Part shown: in pieces, positions 6,439 through 62,277 of the stretch
Numbering within the stretch: the stretch's first letter is position 1
How the letters are laid out: each line of letters begins with the position of its first letter
Assembly (NCBI RefSeq): GCF_026011795.1
Contig: NZ_BRVS01000003.1
Span: forward strand, 1 to 64,000
Source of the DNA: Arthrobacter mangrovi
GTDB lineage: Bacteria; Actinomycetota; Actinomycetes; Actinomycetales; Micrococcaceae
Direction: 5' to 3'
DNA length: 64,000 bases
Translations under genes and position numbers: made by a program
The notes under the pieces: generated by a model
Told to the model about the DNA's origin: nothing
Database searches by the model: none
The model's input: only the letters and a program-made list of their open reading frames with translations

Positions 6439-6614
6439 GCTTCGGTTTGGAATCGGCGCTCCGGTTCGGGCCACGGCTCCGGTTCGGAATGCGCGGTCAG
6501 GCTTGGCCGCCGCTCCGGTTTGGAATCGGCGCTCCGGTTCGGGTCACGGCTCCGGTCTGGAATGCGCGGTCAGGCTTGGCCGCCGCTCCGATTTGGGCTC
6601 CCGCTCCGGTTTGG
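6439..6614 (+). repeat. array of GCTCCGGTTYGG-like words, partly a 73-bp tandem repeat
   Basis: The spacer after gatB holds eight direct copies of a 12-mer close to GCTCCGGTTTGG. They start at 6439, 6458, 6476, 6512, 6531, 6549, 6585 and 6603. Spacing repeats as about 19, 18, 36, because positions 6451-6523 are duplicated as a 73-bp unit at 6524-6596. The last copy is the left arm of the hairpin at 6603-6660. No credible coding sequence was seen here. Confidence 0.85.
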
Positions 6615-6660
6615 ATTCCCTGCTCCGCTTCGAGGCGGAGCGGAAGAACCAAACCGGAGC
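6603..6660. repeat. long nested palindrome, copy A of an interspersed family
   Basis: The outer arms GCTCCGGTTTGG (6603-6614) and CCAAACCGGAGC (6649-6660) are perfect reverse complements. Inside are TTCC/GGAA and then GCTCCGC (6622-6628) paired with GCGGAGC (6635-6641) around a small loop. Two related hairpins occur at 33381-33438 and 34151-34208. This copy follows gatB and could act as a transcript end, but the T-tract after it is weak (GGTTTGCGTT). Confidence 0.85.
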
Positions 6661-32285: not shown

Positions 32286-32480
32286 GCCGGTCCTCCCTGG
32301 ACGCTCGCGTGCCGTTGCTCCAGTGTGGACGCGGGCCACGCAGGCCGCAAGGGGCCCAACACCCGGCCGGCGCCCGGAATGAGCGCTGTCCAGGTGCCCG
32401 GACGGATCGCCGCACGTGCCTCAACGCACGGCCTGCGCCGCGTGCACGCCCCATGGCCGCCGGCTTGGCAAGATAGACCC

Positions 32481-33260
32481 ATGCAGAGCGAGACCGTGAC
32501 GACCGAGGCGATGCCCCGCACCCGCAAGTACTACAGGTACGAGGTCCTGATCGTGCTCGGCCTATCGCTGGGCCAGTCCGCCGTCTACTCCATCGTGAAC
32601 CTGGCCGACAAAATGACCCGCGGCCCGCTGGCCTCGCAGACCACGTCCCTGAACCCGGTGCTCAACGAGCGCGAGTTCTTCGACCTGCTCTACCAGTTGC
32701 TCGGCATCTTCTTCGCCCTCATGCCGGTGGCGCTCGTGGTGCTCCTGATGACCTCGCCCGGCAAGACCGCCTTCCGGAAGATCGGCTTCACGTTCTCCCG
32801 GCCGGGCATCGACTTCGGCCTCGGCTTCGGACTGGCCGCCCTGATCGGCGCCGGCACTTTAGGCGTCTACGCTGCCGGACGGGCCCTGGGAATAACGACG
32901 GCGGTGGTCCCGGCCGCCCTCGACCAGTACTGGTGGACGGTTCCCGTGCTCGTCCTCTCCGCCCTCCGCCACGCTGTCCTGGAGGAAGTCGTCATGGTCG
33001 GCTACCTGTTCGACCGGCTGGCCAGGCTCGGCTGGGGGACCTGGACCGTCATCCTCACCAGCGCCGCGATCCGCGGCAGCTACCACCTCTACCAGGGGAT
33101 CGGGCCCGGCGTCGGCAACTTCCTGATGGGCCTCATCTTCGGATACGCCTACACCCGCACCCGGCGCGTCATGCCGCTCGTCGTCGCCCACGCCCTCCTC
33201 GACATCGCAGGCTTCGTCGGCTACGCCCTCCTCGGCCCCGCCATCGGCATCGGCACCTGA
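32481..33260 (+). CDS. CPBP-family intramembrane protease-like protein
   Basis: The product is 259 aa with about six to seven hydrophobic segments. The start is ATG 32481. The CPBP active-site pattern is present: Glu168-Glu169 in LEEVVMVGYL, His202 in RGSYHLYQG, and His237/Asp241 in HALLD. The Arg usual after EExxx is replaced (EEVVMVG), which I believe is common in the actinobacterial branch. Members are Abi/CAAX-type membrane metalloproteases or scaffolds; no substrate is suggested by the neighbours. Confidence 0.85.
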   Translation: MQSETVTTEAMPRTRKYYRYEVLIVLGLSLGQSAVYSIVNLADKMTRGPLASQTTSLNPVLNEREFFDLLYQLLGIFFALMPVALVVLLMTSPGKTAFRKIGFTFSRPGIDFGLGFGLAALIGAGTLGVYAAGRALGITTAVVPAALDQYWWTVPVLVLSALRHAVLEEVVMVGYLFDRLARLGWGTWTVILTSAAIRGSYHLYQGIGPGVGNFLMGLIFGYAYTRTRRVMPLVVAHALLDIAGFVGYALLGPAIGIGT

Positions 33261-33280
33261 CCACCCCTCCTCGCCCACCC

Positions 33281-33345
33281 CGACCCTGCCCACCGACCCC
33301 GCACCCGCCCACCGACCCTGCCCACCGACCCCGCACCCGCCTACC
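33281..33345 (+). repeat. 32-bp C-rich tandem repeat
   Basis: Two near-identical 32-bp units begin CGACCCTGCCCACCGACCCC at 33281 and 33313, followed by degenerate C-rich sequence. This fills most of the spacer 33261-33483 together with palindrome copy B. Confidence 0.8.
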
Positions 33346-33380
33346 CCGCACTCGCGCACCCGACTCGCCCCGCCCAACCC

Positions 33381-33438
33381 GCTCCGTTTTGGCTGCATGG
33401 CTCCAGCTCGAGCGGGAGCCACGCAGCCAAAACGGAGC
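33381..33438. repeat. long nested palindrome, copy B
   Basis: The 16-bp arms GCTCCGTTTTGGCTGC (33381-33396) and GCAGCCAAAACGGAGC (33423-33438) are perfect reverse complements. They enclose TGGCTCC (33398-33404) and GGAGCCA (33415-33421). It lies between convergent genes and has no T-tract on either strand, so it is not a simple terminator. Confidence 0.9.
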
Positions 33439-33483
33439 AACAGCCCAAATCGGAGCAGCGGGAGGCCGCGGACGAAGACGTCG

Positions 33484-34056
33484 CTACATGTTGGTCCAGT
33501 AATTGCTCCAGCGATCCTGCCGTAGGCCTGCTCGGTGAAGGATGGACACCAAACAGGCCGGCTCGGTGGAATCCGACTGCCAGATGTCATCCCACATCCA
33601 GCGGGAAACCTGGATCCCGGTTGCTCTGATGCGGTCCTCGCGCCTTTTCTCCCGGACAACCGCGCCTGCCGGGGCGTTGCCCTTCAGGTATGCGTCCCGG
33701 GAGTATTTGACCGCTCCATCGAACTCGCCCGCCAGGTTTTGCAGCGGCCAATAGAAGTCCAGGATTCCGACTCTGCTGCCTTGCGGATCGTCGACCGGCT
33801 GGCGGATAACCGGGATGCCCCAAATCGCGGCGGCGGATTGTCGGATCAGGGCCCGGTCCCTCCTGCTGGTCCCGATGACAGCGTCGATGCGGATCCGCTG
33901 TTGCTCCCACCGCGGCAGCTGTTCAAAGGGCGCCGCCTCGGCATACACGCCGCGGCGCAGCCTGATGAGCTCTCCGCTTCCAACTCTTGCCGCCAAAGCA
34001 TGCCGGTCCTGGCCCGCAATCTCGATGTCCCGCGTGTAGATGAGCCGCATGTTCAC
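33484..34056 (-). pseudogene. AbiEi-like (type IV toxin-antitoxin antitoxin family) gene with internal deletion
   Basis: The product would be 190 aa and is in frame throughout. Residues 1-85 match the N-terminus of the ~300-aa AbiEi-like proteins common in Arthrobacter: a winged-helix start, ELIRLRRGVYAEA and SAAAIWGIPVI. Residues ~95-158 match their C-terminal nuclease-like domain: ILDFYWPLQNLAGEFDGAVKY, REKRREDRIRATG, VSRWMWDD. The ~110-130 residues normally between them are missing, with the junction near residue 85-95 (about 33,775-33,805). The product may be inactive or a minimal version. No partner toxin gene lies beside it. Confidence 0.65.
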
Positions 34057-34150
34057 AGACTGCCGCCAGGCAACATCGTCCGGGCATGGTCATGAACGCG
34101 TTGTGGATCCCATGGCATCTCGACGCAGCTGTGTAGGCCGGAAAGCAAAA

Positions 34151-34208
34151 GCTCCGCTTTGGTCGCCTCGCTCCAACTCGAAGCGGAGCAAGGCAACCAA
34201 AACGGAGC
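34151..34208 (-). terminator. long nested palindrome, copy C; likely terminator of the VOC gene
   Basis: Arms at 34151-34168 and 34191-34208 pair with two C/A mismatches on the plus strand, which become G-U pairs on the minus strand. The inner stem is GCTCC (34170-34174) with GGAGC (34185-34189). On the minus strand the stem is followed by TTTTGCTTT. Position is 78 bp after the VOC gene stop. It belongs to the same repeat family as 6603 and 33381. Confidence 0.65.
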
Positions 34209-34285
34209 CTCCTGCATAGAGGGGCGCGGGGCGCCGGGTATGAGGGCGCGGGGGGCCGGTAGTCAGATCCCCGACGACGCCGTTG

Positions 34286-34927
34286 CTAGAGTTCGACGAT
34301 GCCGTTGGGCGTCTCGAACCGCACGGACATGATGCCCGGCGTGCCGTTCGGCGCCGTCCACGCGACCTTGACATCGTCCAGGAGCGCGTCGACCGGGGTG
34401 CCCAGCCAGTCCGCCACGCGGGCCGACGAGCCGGCGATCGTCAGGCCGATCAGCTTGGCGGTCGCCTCGTAGGCCTTGGAGGGGTGCAGGTCCTCGGTGC
34501 CTTCGTCCCAACGCAGCATGTACGGCACCTGCGGGTCCGCGATCAGGCCCTTGATGCCGATCTGCTGCCAGGTCAGCTCACGGCCGTCCGGGAACTTGCG
34601 GTTGCCCGGGACGGCATTGCGGCCCAGCCGCTCCTCGAAGGGCGCCAGGTCGTCAACTTCGACGCACCAGCCCATCCAGCCGCCGCCGGCCTCGGACCGG
34701 GCGCGCACCGCCTGTCCGAAGGGTGCCTTGTCCGACGCCGGGTGCGCCAGGACCTCGACGACCTCGAGATAGTGGTGGTCCGTCAGGGGGAAAATCATGT
34801 TCCGGGTACCGAAGCGGGGGTGCACCCCGCCCTTGACTGCCTCGATGCCCAGGGCCGAGGCAATACGCTCGGTGGTGGCAGCCAGGCCATCGGGTTCACA
34901 TGCATAGGAAACGTGGTCGAAACGCAT
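34286..34927 (-). CDS. VOC-family (glyoxalase-like) protein
   Basis: The product is 213 aa. It begins MRFDHVSYACEPDGLAATTE, the first beta-alpha-beta unit of a vicinal-oxygen-chelate domain, with HHYLEVVEVL and GWMGWCVEVDDLAPFEERLG following. This matches the glyoxalase-like domain family common in Micrococcaceae. Substrate and activity are unknown. It is divergent from the SAM-IV/metYX unit. Confidence 0.8.
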   Translation of the reverse strand: MRFDHVSYACEPDGLAATTERIASALGIEAVKGGVHPRFGTRNMIFPLTDHHYLEVVEVLAHPASDKAPFGQAVRARSEAGGGWMGWCVEVDDLAPFEERLGRNAVPGNRKFPDGRELTWQQIGIKGLIADPQVPYMLRWDEGTEDLHPSKAYEATAKLIGLTIAGSSARVADWLGTPVDALLDDVKVAWTAPNGTPGIMSVRFETPNGIVEL

Positions 34928-53328: not shown

Positions 53329-53366
53329 AAAGAGCCCGTCCTGATTCGTCAGGACGGGCTCTTTTG
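53329..53366. terminator. strong bidirectional terminator after tRNA-Asn
   Basis: AAAGAGCCCGTCCTGA (53329-53344) pairs perfectly with its complement at 53349-53364 around a TTCG loop. A-rich and T-rich flanks serve both strands, between tRNA-Asn (+) and the beta-glucosidase gene (-). Confidence 0.95.
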
Positions 53367-59087: not shown

Positions 59088-59113
59088 ACTATGTTACTCA
59101 TGAGTAACATAGT
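59088..59113. promoter_or_regulatory. perfect 26-bp palindrome, TetR-type operator of the acyl-CoA dehydrogenase gene
   Basis: The left half ACTATGTTACTCA is followed directly by its exact reverse complement TGAGTAACATAGT. It lies 43 bp upstream of the acyl-CoA dehydrogenase start. Size and symmetry fit a TetR-family repressor; none is encoded in the window. Confidence 0.8.
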
Positions 59114-62244: not shown

Positions 62245-62277
62245 GCTGCGGCTGGCCGGTACCCGGCCAGCCGCAGC
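62245..62277 (+). promoter_or_regulatory. perfect 15-bp hairpin between rpsB and tsf
   Basis: GCTGCGGCTGGCCGG (62245-62259) pairs perfectly with its complement at 62263-62277 over a 3-nt loop. No T-run follows, so it is more likely a partial terminator, processing site or stabiliser between the two cotranscribed genes. Confidence 0.8.

Follow-up and report, generated by a model that had tools for sequence, protein, structure and literature searches.

Two palindromes, B and C, bracket a single gene in the 64-kb stretch of DNA analysed here (the window), and as cognate palindromes they probably mark the boundaries of a small selfish cassette, whose one gene encodes an AbiEi-nuclease. Palindrome A, located elsewhere in the window, would be a copy that settled away from the gene. 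The cassette would be REPtron-like and possibly a homing element, with a nuclease that bears no likeness to the RAYT transposases. The direct basis of this reading is the association between gene and palindromes, the match between the left and right flanks, the co-divergence of palindrome and protein, the repeated presence or absence of the gene at one site, the existence of solo copies, and the predicted fold of the protein.

The palindromes of the window and their copies

Palindrome B (33381-33438, 58 bp) is real and lies far beyond chance. It is situated 3' of the AbiEi-nuclease gene, where two genes converge, and consists of a nested GCTCC..GGAGC hairpin inside perfectly complementary 16-bp outer arms, with no T-tract behind it on either strand, as the earlier note had described. 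With a score of 23 it is the top inverted repeat of the window, where the next best scores 16; none of 40 simulated windows of 64 kb each (first-order Markov) went above 14. As single-stranded DNA, B is predicted to fold at -30.8 kcal/mol (z = -10.2), and 0 of 200 shuffled sequences came that low. Elsewhere in the window, a strong inverted repeat at 53329-53364 (AAAGAGCCCGTCCTGA..TCAGGACGGGCTCTTT) has the look of an ordinary terminator, and two further inverted repeats are found at 62245-62277 and 59088-59113; of these, one exceeds the simulated maxima and the other falls within their range.

Palindromes A (6603-6660) and C (34151-34208) are likewise 58 bp long and share with B the common frame GCTCCGnTTTGG-N7-GCTCC..GGAGC-N7-CCAAAnCGGAGC, which bears out the relationship proposed for the three. 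Their sites had also been called unlinked, but B and C flank one gene, their starts being only 770 bp apart, with C on the 5' side. An Rce1-like CAAX protease gene (32325-33260, plus strand) follows on the B side and a Glyoxalase_3 gene (34286-34927, minus strand) on the C side. Palindrome A is a dispersed copy downstream of gatB, without an adjoining nuclease gene. An array of 18/19-bp units, made up of GCTCCGnTTTGG and its variants, runs into A (6439-6614, plus strand) and contains, by eye, a duplicated four-unit block of 73 bp. This array seems to grow by unit addition, since the site is shorter in genome G003 and minimal in G006. An extra GCTCCGATTTGG unit with a period of 18 bp is also located beside B (33445-33456, minus strand). 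Behind C, a TTTT stretch is present on the minus strand alone, so that C may also end the glyoxalase transcript. A consensus terminator scan of 33200-34350 passed over both B and C, and a comparison of 32900-34400 with Rfam returned nine matches, all of them sub-threshold (eight microRNA models and one mraW).

Further copies were located with a covariance model trained on 15 copies, among them those of the window's genome (G000), those of G003 and two of G004. Counted as places at E <= 0.01 (the raw tally takes both strands), the model found 6 in G000, 7 in G003 and between 0 and 4 in eight others: 4 in G007, 3 in G004, 2 each in G006 and G002, and 1 in G001, with no match at this threshold in G005, G008 and G009, each of which carries a diverged palindrome at the locus. 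Palindrome B, as part of the training set, was recovered in its own genome by model R1 with E 1e-16. The earlier note had named a genome scan without further copies as evidence against its reading; the dispersed copies found in this genome and genus instead agree with the common mobile, REP-like origin that it suggested. A half-palindrome pattern, searched with up to 3 mismatches in 39 genomes, occurred at several places in G000 and G003, at one in G007 and at one (3 mismatches) in G030, and a reversed control pattern at none. Judged by flanking sequence, all six G000 copies have counterparts in G003, and the seventh G003 copy has a counterpart in G002 and none in G000. Site G (G003, G002) was considered as evidence of insertion and proved uninformative, the G000 intergene having collapsed to about 21 bp. 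Copy numbers are low, with at most 7 per genome in the genus, and the idea of an uptake sequence was dropped for this reason. A confinement of the copies to gene 3' ends, which had also been raised, is not borne out: on a reading of the sequence, the two frames on either side of copy D start away from it, and palindromes are present upstream of the nuclease gene in 21 of 80 loci.

The inner stems had been said to differ in sequence while keeping complementarity through compensatory change. By hand count, the inner 7-bp segment pairs at 6/7 positions in B and at 5/7 in C, and in A only with a shift. Across 14 copies, some measures lie above shuffles, namely the share of paired inner-stem cells (79.2% vs 77.0% shuffled; 12/500), the covariation score (0.109 vs 0.084; 13/500) and the cells changed on both sides (23 vs 15.0 +/- 3.1; 3/500), all of them overstated because the copies are related. 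Others are unremarkable (pairs with both-side changes, 158/500; further pair types, 108/500), and the covariation term of RNAalifold is unfavourable at +0.53. Compensatory change is thus weak and mixed overall and was rejected as the main support. Symmetry is kept between clades, in that entire palindromes differ and stay palindromic. Taken together, the mobile origin put forward in the earlier note is supported, the inner-stem covariation is weak, and the gene between B and C had been missed.

The bracketed gene and its flanks

The gene between B and C (33484-34056, minus strand) encodes a protein of 190 aa with a Pfam match to AbiEi_4 (E 1.5e-6). Intact orthologs are about 320 aa long, with open frames of 323-345 codons in G003, G004, G005 and G001, and combine an AbiEi antitoxin-like part with a nuclease domain of the Vsr/I-Bth0305I type. 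Relatives match the G000 protein in two separate segments, which indicates that about 130 residues (about 84-215 of the 320-aa ortholog) were lost in frame from the gene as assembled. The deletion takes out the conserved stretch holding E197 to R201, and from it we infer that the window's gene is probably inactive. At E <= 1e-20, relatives are present in 219 of 395 sampled genomes of the family.

The structure of the G003 protein was modelled with AlphaFold (pLDDT 91.1). In this model, residues 194-309 resemble I-Bth0305I (3r3p; Z 10.5, 94 aligned, 2.6 Å), and within the range 190-309 there are further matches to the Vsr fold in 3hrl (Z 9.7) and 1cw0 (Z 9.4). Residues 1-189 resemble AbiEi 6y8q (Z 10.1, 170 aligned) as well as Rv2827c; the high rmsd to 6y8q (7.3 Å) indicates that the domains of this part are placed differently. 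Across 47 proteins, no variation is seen at E197, S198, R201, Q215, D230, E241, D243, G244, K247, R269 and R282, of which E197, D230, E241, D243 and K247 are candidate catalytic residues. Among 17 proteins compared with profile collections, Pfam recognised AbiEi_4 in 12 and, weakly, DUF559 in 1, the PADLOC AbiEi model matched 16 at E <= 0.01, and NCBIfam and PHROGs matched none. A sequence search against solved structures gave a best E of 0.065 and was set aside as not credible. By Pfam and by fold, the bracketed gene is not a Y1/HUH tyrosine transposase.

Inverted repeats cluster around this gene. The 80 named loci come almost entirely from Arthrobacter and neighbouring genera, and in them the density of the repeats within 300 bp of the nuclease gene is about 10x that farther away, with 55 repeats in 159 adjacent bins of 300 bp (0.346 each) vs 138 in 3820 bins farther out (0.036). 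An inverted repeat lies within 450 bp of a gene end in 52 of the 80 loci and on both sides in 12, and a strict palindrome near the gene is absent from 28; binned by repeat midpoints, repeats are found 3' in 37 loci and 5' in 21. The gatB control weakens plain palindrome enrichment at gene ends as an argument. Hairpins at 3' ends are common in these genomes (a 3' inverted repeat is present in 19 of 30 gatB loci, and repeats on both sides in 0 of 30), so that a single 3' palindrome proves little, and the argument therefore rests on left-right matching and co-divergence.

When the strongest palindrome of a locus was compared with the opposite flank, the match beat all control windows of the same locus in 36 of 49 testable loci, where about 1.35 would be expected, and failed to do so in 13; 51 of the 80 loci were scored, and those with at least 20 controls were taken as testable. 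In a phylum sample of 30 loci from 23 genomes, with 4-5 control windows per locus, the two flanks matched above controls in 23 loci (e.g., L265, L268, L270 and L278), two of them marginally, and a match was absent from 7. Outside the window's family, which accounts for 27 of these 30 loci, 20 match from left to right. At gatB, 16 of the 19 hairpins could be scored and matched the opposite flank at 21 or less, in what is a limited control because the 5' side of gatB adjoins gatA.

The palindromes diverge together with the protein. Among many Actinomycetota relatives, they are alike within a locus and unlike between protein clades, and in genome G017 two paralogs are accompanied by different palindromes (L260, L287). 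Over 70 loci, namely those named loci that have both an open frame and a palindrome, together with 18 phylum loci selected from the 30 because they had palindromes, palindrome similarity follows protein similarity (Mantel 0.44, 0/2000). At a shared site in genus g9, with flank divergence held constant over a measure of 360 bases only, the partial Mantel correlation is 0.70 (0/2000; n = 16 of 23 gene-bearing alleles, with 3 left out for lacking a palindrome within the limit and 4 for short or broken frames). On these sequence comparisons, the cognate pairing of palindrome and protein appears well supported.

Presence and absence of the gene at fixed sites

At the window's locus, G000, G003 and G004 share the arrangement palindrome-gene-palindrome, G002 and G008 hold one palindrome with similar outer arms and no gene, and in G006 gene and palindrome are both absent and an ordinary hairpin with a T-run (TTTT) is present. 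At the gatB site, the GCTCCGGTTTGG type occurs in G000, G003 and G006, with a short form in G006 and an array of at least nine units in G000 as the extremes. A different palindrome, of the CAGATAACGCCC, CAGGTAACGCCC or CAGATCACGCCC type, is found there in G001, G002, G004, G005 and G008 (L033, L034, L035, L036 and L039), and neither palindrome type in G007 and G009. Judged from this distribution, the GCTCCG type is probably a newcomer at gatB, since the other palindrome is present also in G001, a more remote relative of G000 by gatB identity.

For the shared g9 site, 61 genomes were searched and the alleles of 58 compared, those of G302, G425 and G436 being left out; the gene or a remnant of it is present in 23 of the 58 alleles. 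The flank tree of this site requires the gene to have been gained or lost at least 12 times, with 8 of the changes on starred branches. A palindrome is kept in 28 of the 35 gene-less alleles, and none was seen in the other 7. The kept palindromes resemble nuclease-gene palindromes (some from the same site) in 26 of the 28 alleles, and so do 6 of 128 other inverted repeats located farther from nuclease genes. Loss could explain many of the gene-less alleles.

The closest pair of occupied and empty alleles is G443/G381, where the flanks are 97.5% and 94.9% identical and a block of about 1.5 kb is present in one genome and absent from the other. The block contains the gene together with one palindrome and, by eye, two degenerate copies. 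The pair fits deletion as well as insertion, because the block is simply absent from the empty allele, which holds no scar of that palindrome type; no exact insertion with a target duplication was seen. At the same chromosomal site of these two genomes (L452 in G381, L421 in G443), a second palindrome family (GGACAGCCGCTACGTGGATCC) adjoins the first. In G440, palindromes of this second family accompany a nuclease gene of their own.

Solo copies are found in G438, G428 and G427, where 17 palindromes lie in 16 of 20 regions with no nuclease gene within the fetched stretch of up to about 2.5 kb on each side; two of the regions are the shared g9 site. It was from the surroundings of one solo palindrome in G427 that this shared site, which holds the nuclease gene in other species, was recognised. 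The g9 pattern search matched 46 of the 61 genomes, and only paired matches were used, since lone matches with 3 mismatches overlap the background given by a reversed control (up to 4 matches in a genome).

Alternative readings, mechanism and related systems

The palindromes could be read as operators of a non-mobile AbiEi-like regulator that represses itself at the 5' copy and other genes at scattered copies, with the nuclease serving defence or repair. In Streptococcus agalactiae, AbiEi represses its own expression and binds inverted repeats of its promoter, according to PMC3985639; the protein here has an AbiEi-type fold and profiles, and some copies do lie upstream of genes. We nonetheless regard this reading as unlikely, as copies are commoner 3' of the gene than 5' of it (37 and 21 of the 80 loci, respectively) and an operator would be expected at the 5' end, the gene changes state at least 12 times at one site, and gene-less alleles mostly keep the palindrome. 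Ordinary bidirectional terminators or mRNA 3' hairpins, with a sequence shared by descent or gene conversion, seem more doubtful still. Such hairpins would account for the 3' inverted repeats of the gatB loci, for the position of B between convergent genes, and for the TTTT after C behind the glyoxalase gene, at which position G006 has its ordinary hairpin with TTTT. However, B itself lacks a T-tract, the gatB hairpins neither occur on both sides nor match the opposite flank above 21 (within the limits of that control, given gatA on the 5' side), and the palindromes of the nuclease gene match from one side of it to the other, vary with protein similarity and are found 5' of genes as well.

Very improbable, in our view, is a REP family of the classical kind, mobilised by a RAYT (Y1/HUH) transposase encoded elsewhere in the genome, with the AbiEi-nuclease gene as a bystander. 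The anatomy is indeed REP-like, being short, palindromic, intergenic and dispersed, and REPtron genes are also flanked by palindromes, as described in PMC3733652. Yet the gene bracketed here is not a Y1 transposase, neither GTAG nor CGTC is found within about 10 bases of the ends of A, B and C (which read GCTCCG...CGGAGC), and the palindromes co-diverge with the AbiEi-nuclease protein.

With slightly less than even confidence, we propose a phylum-wide class of selfish element of the Actinomycetota in which the AbiEi-nuclease fusion recognises, maintains and spreads its own palindromes under lock-and-key co-evolution, some palindromes growing by 18-19-bp units. In the mechanism proposed for the cassette itself, the AbiEi part would bind the repeated half-sites of the palindrome, the nuclease would nick or cut the palindrome, perhaps as a cruciform, and repair would copy it, alone or together with the gene, into target sites or into alleles nearby. 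Binding by the AbiEi part is plausible, given that the S. agalactiae AbiEi binds inverted repeats near its own gene (PMC3985639). Spread by break repair or homing appears more likely than single-strand transposition, since the modelled nuclease fold gives no hint of RAYT-like tyrosine chemistry. Because the G000 gene is internally deleted, the palindromes of the window are probably relics, some of them perhaps reused as transcript-end hairpins.

The cassette shares with REPtrons (REP and RAYT Y1/HUH) and with TIRYT/TIRtrons the layout of one enzyme gene between palindromic repeats and of solo copies dispersed between genes. It differs from REPtrons in its enzyme, which combines an AbiEi-like part with a Vsr-like nuclease fold in place of a tyrosine transposase, and in its few copies per genome, low for a REP family. 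With the AbiE type IV toxin-antitoxin systems, it has in common the AbiEi winged-helix fold (residues 1-189) and, through the known AbiEi, the binding of inverted repeats near the gene. It departs from them in the extra C-terminal nuclease domain, in palindromes that stand on both sides of the gene and elsewhere, and in that no AbiEii nucleotidyltransferase toxin gene adjoins it in the window, where the neighbours encode the CAAX protease and the Glyoxalase_3 protein. The predicted fold of the C-terminal domain is that of Vsr/EDxHD homing endonucleases (I-Bth0305I). Homing genes pass through a cycle of gain, decay and loss, which the presence or absence of the gene at a fixed site, with decayed copies, resembles. 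In contrast to homing endonucleases, neither intron nor intein was seen at the loci read, and the target site would not be disrupted in the usual homing way, as the palindromes on both sides may be complete in occupied alleles.

Actinobacterial proteins with DUF559/AbiEi domains probably belong to the same broad annotation group. Among the open-licence PMC papers searched, none combines 'DUF559' and 'inverted repeats', and the titles and abstract starts of the matches listed there hold no description of palindromes that bracket an AbiEi- or Vsr-type gene. One table row among the REP counts of PMC12306157 names an Arthrobacter genome, and RAYT, transposase and nuclease are absent from the main text of that article. 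The best-known bacterial enzyme tied to a dispersed palindrome family is RAYT with its REPs (PMC3733652).

That versions of this gene in many actinobacteria stand between distinctive palindromes of their own suggests a small mobile element of a little-known kind. With 58 genomes compared at a single site, gain, decay and loss can be measured. If the reading is true, a second, unrelated enzyme type with the layout of a REPtron would mean that this arrangement evolved more than once. It would also give a testable function to a common actinobacterial protein group so far named after an antitoxin domain, and would offer many natural enzyme-target pairs with divergent specificities.
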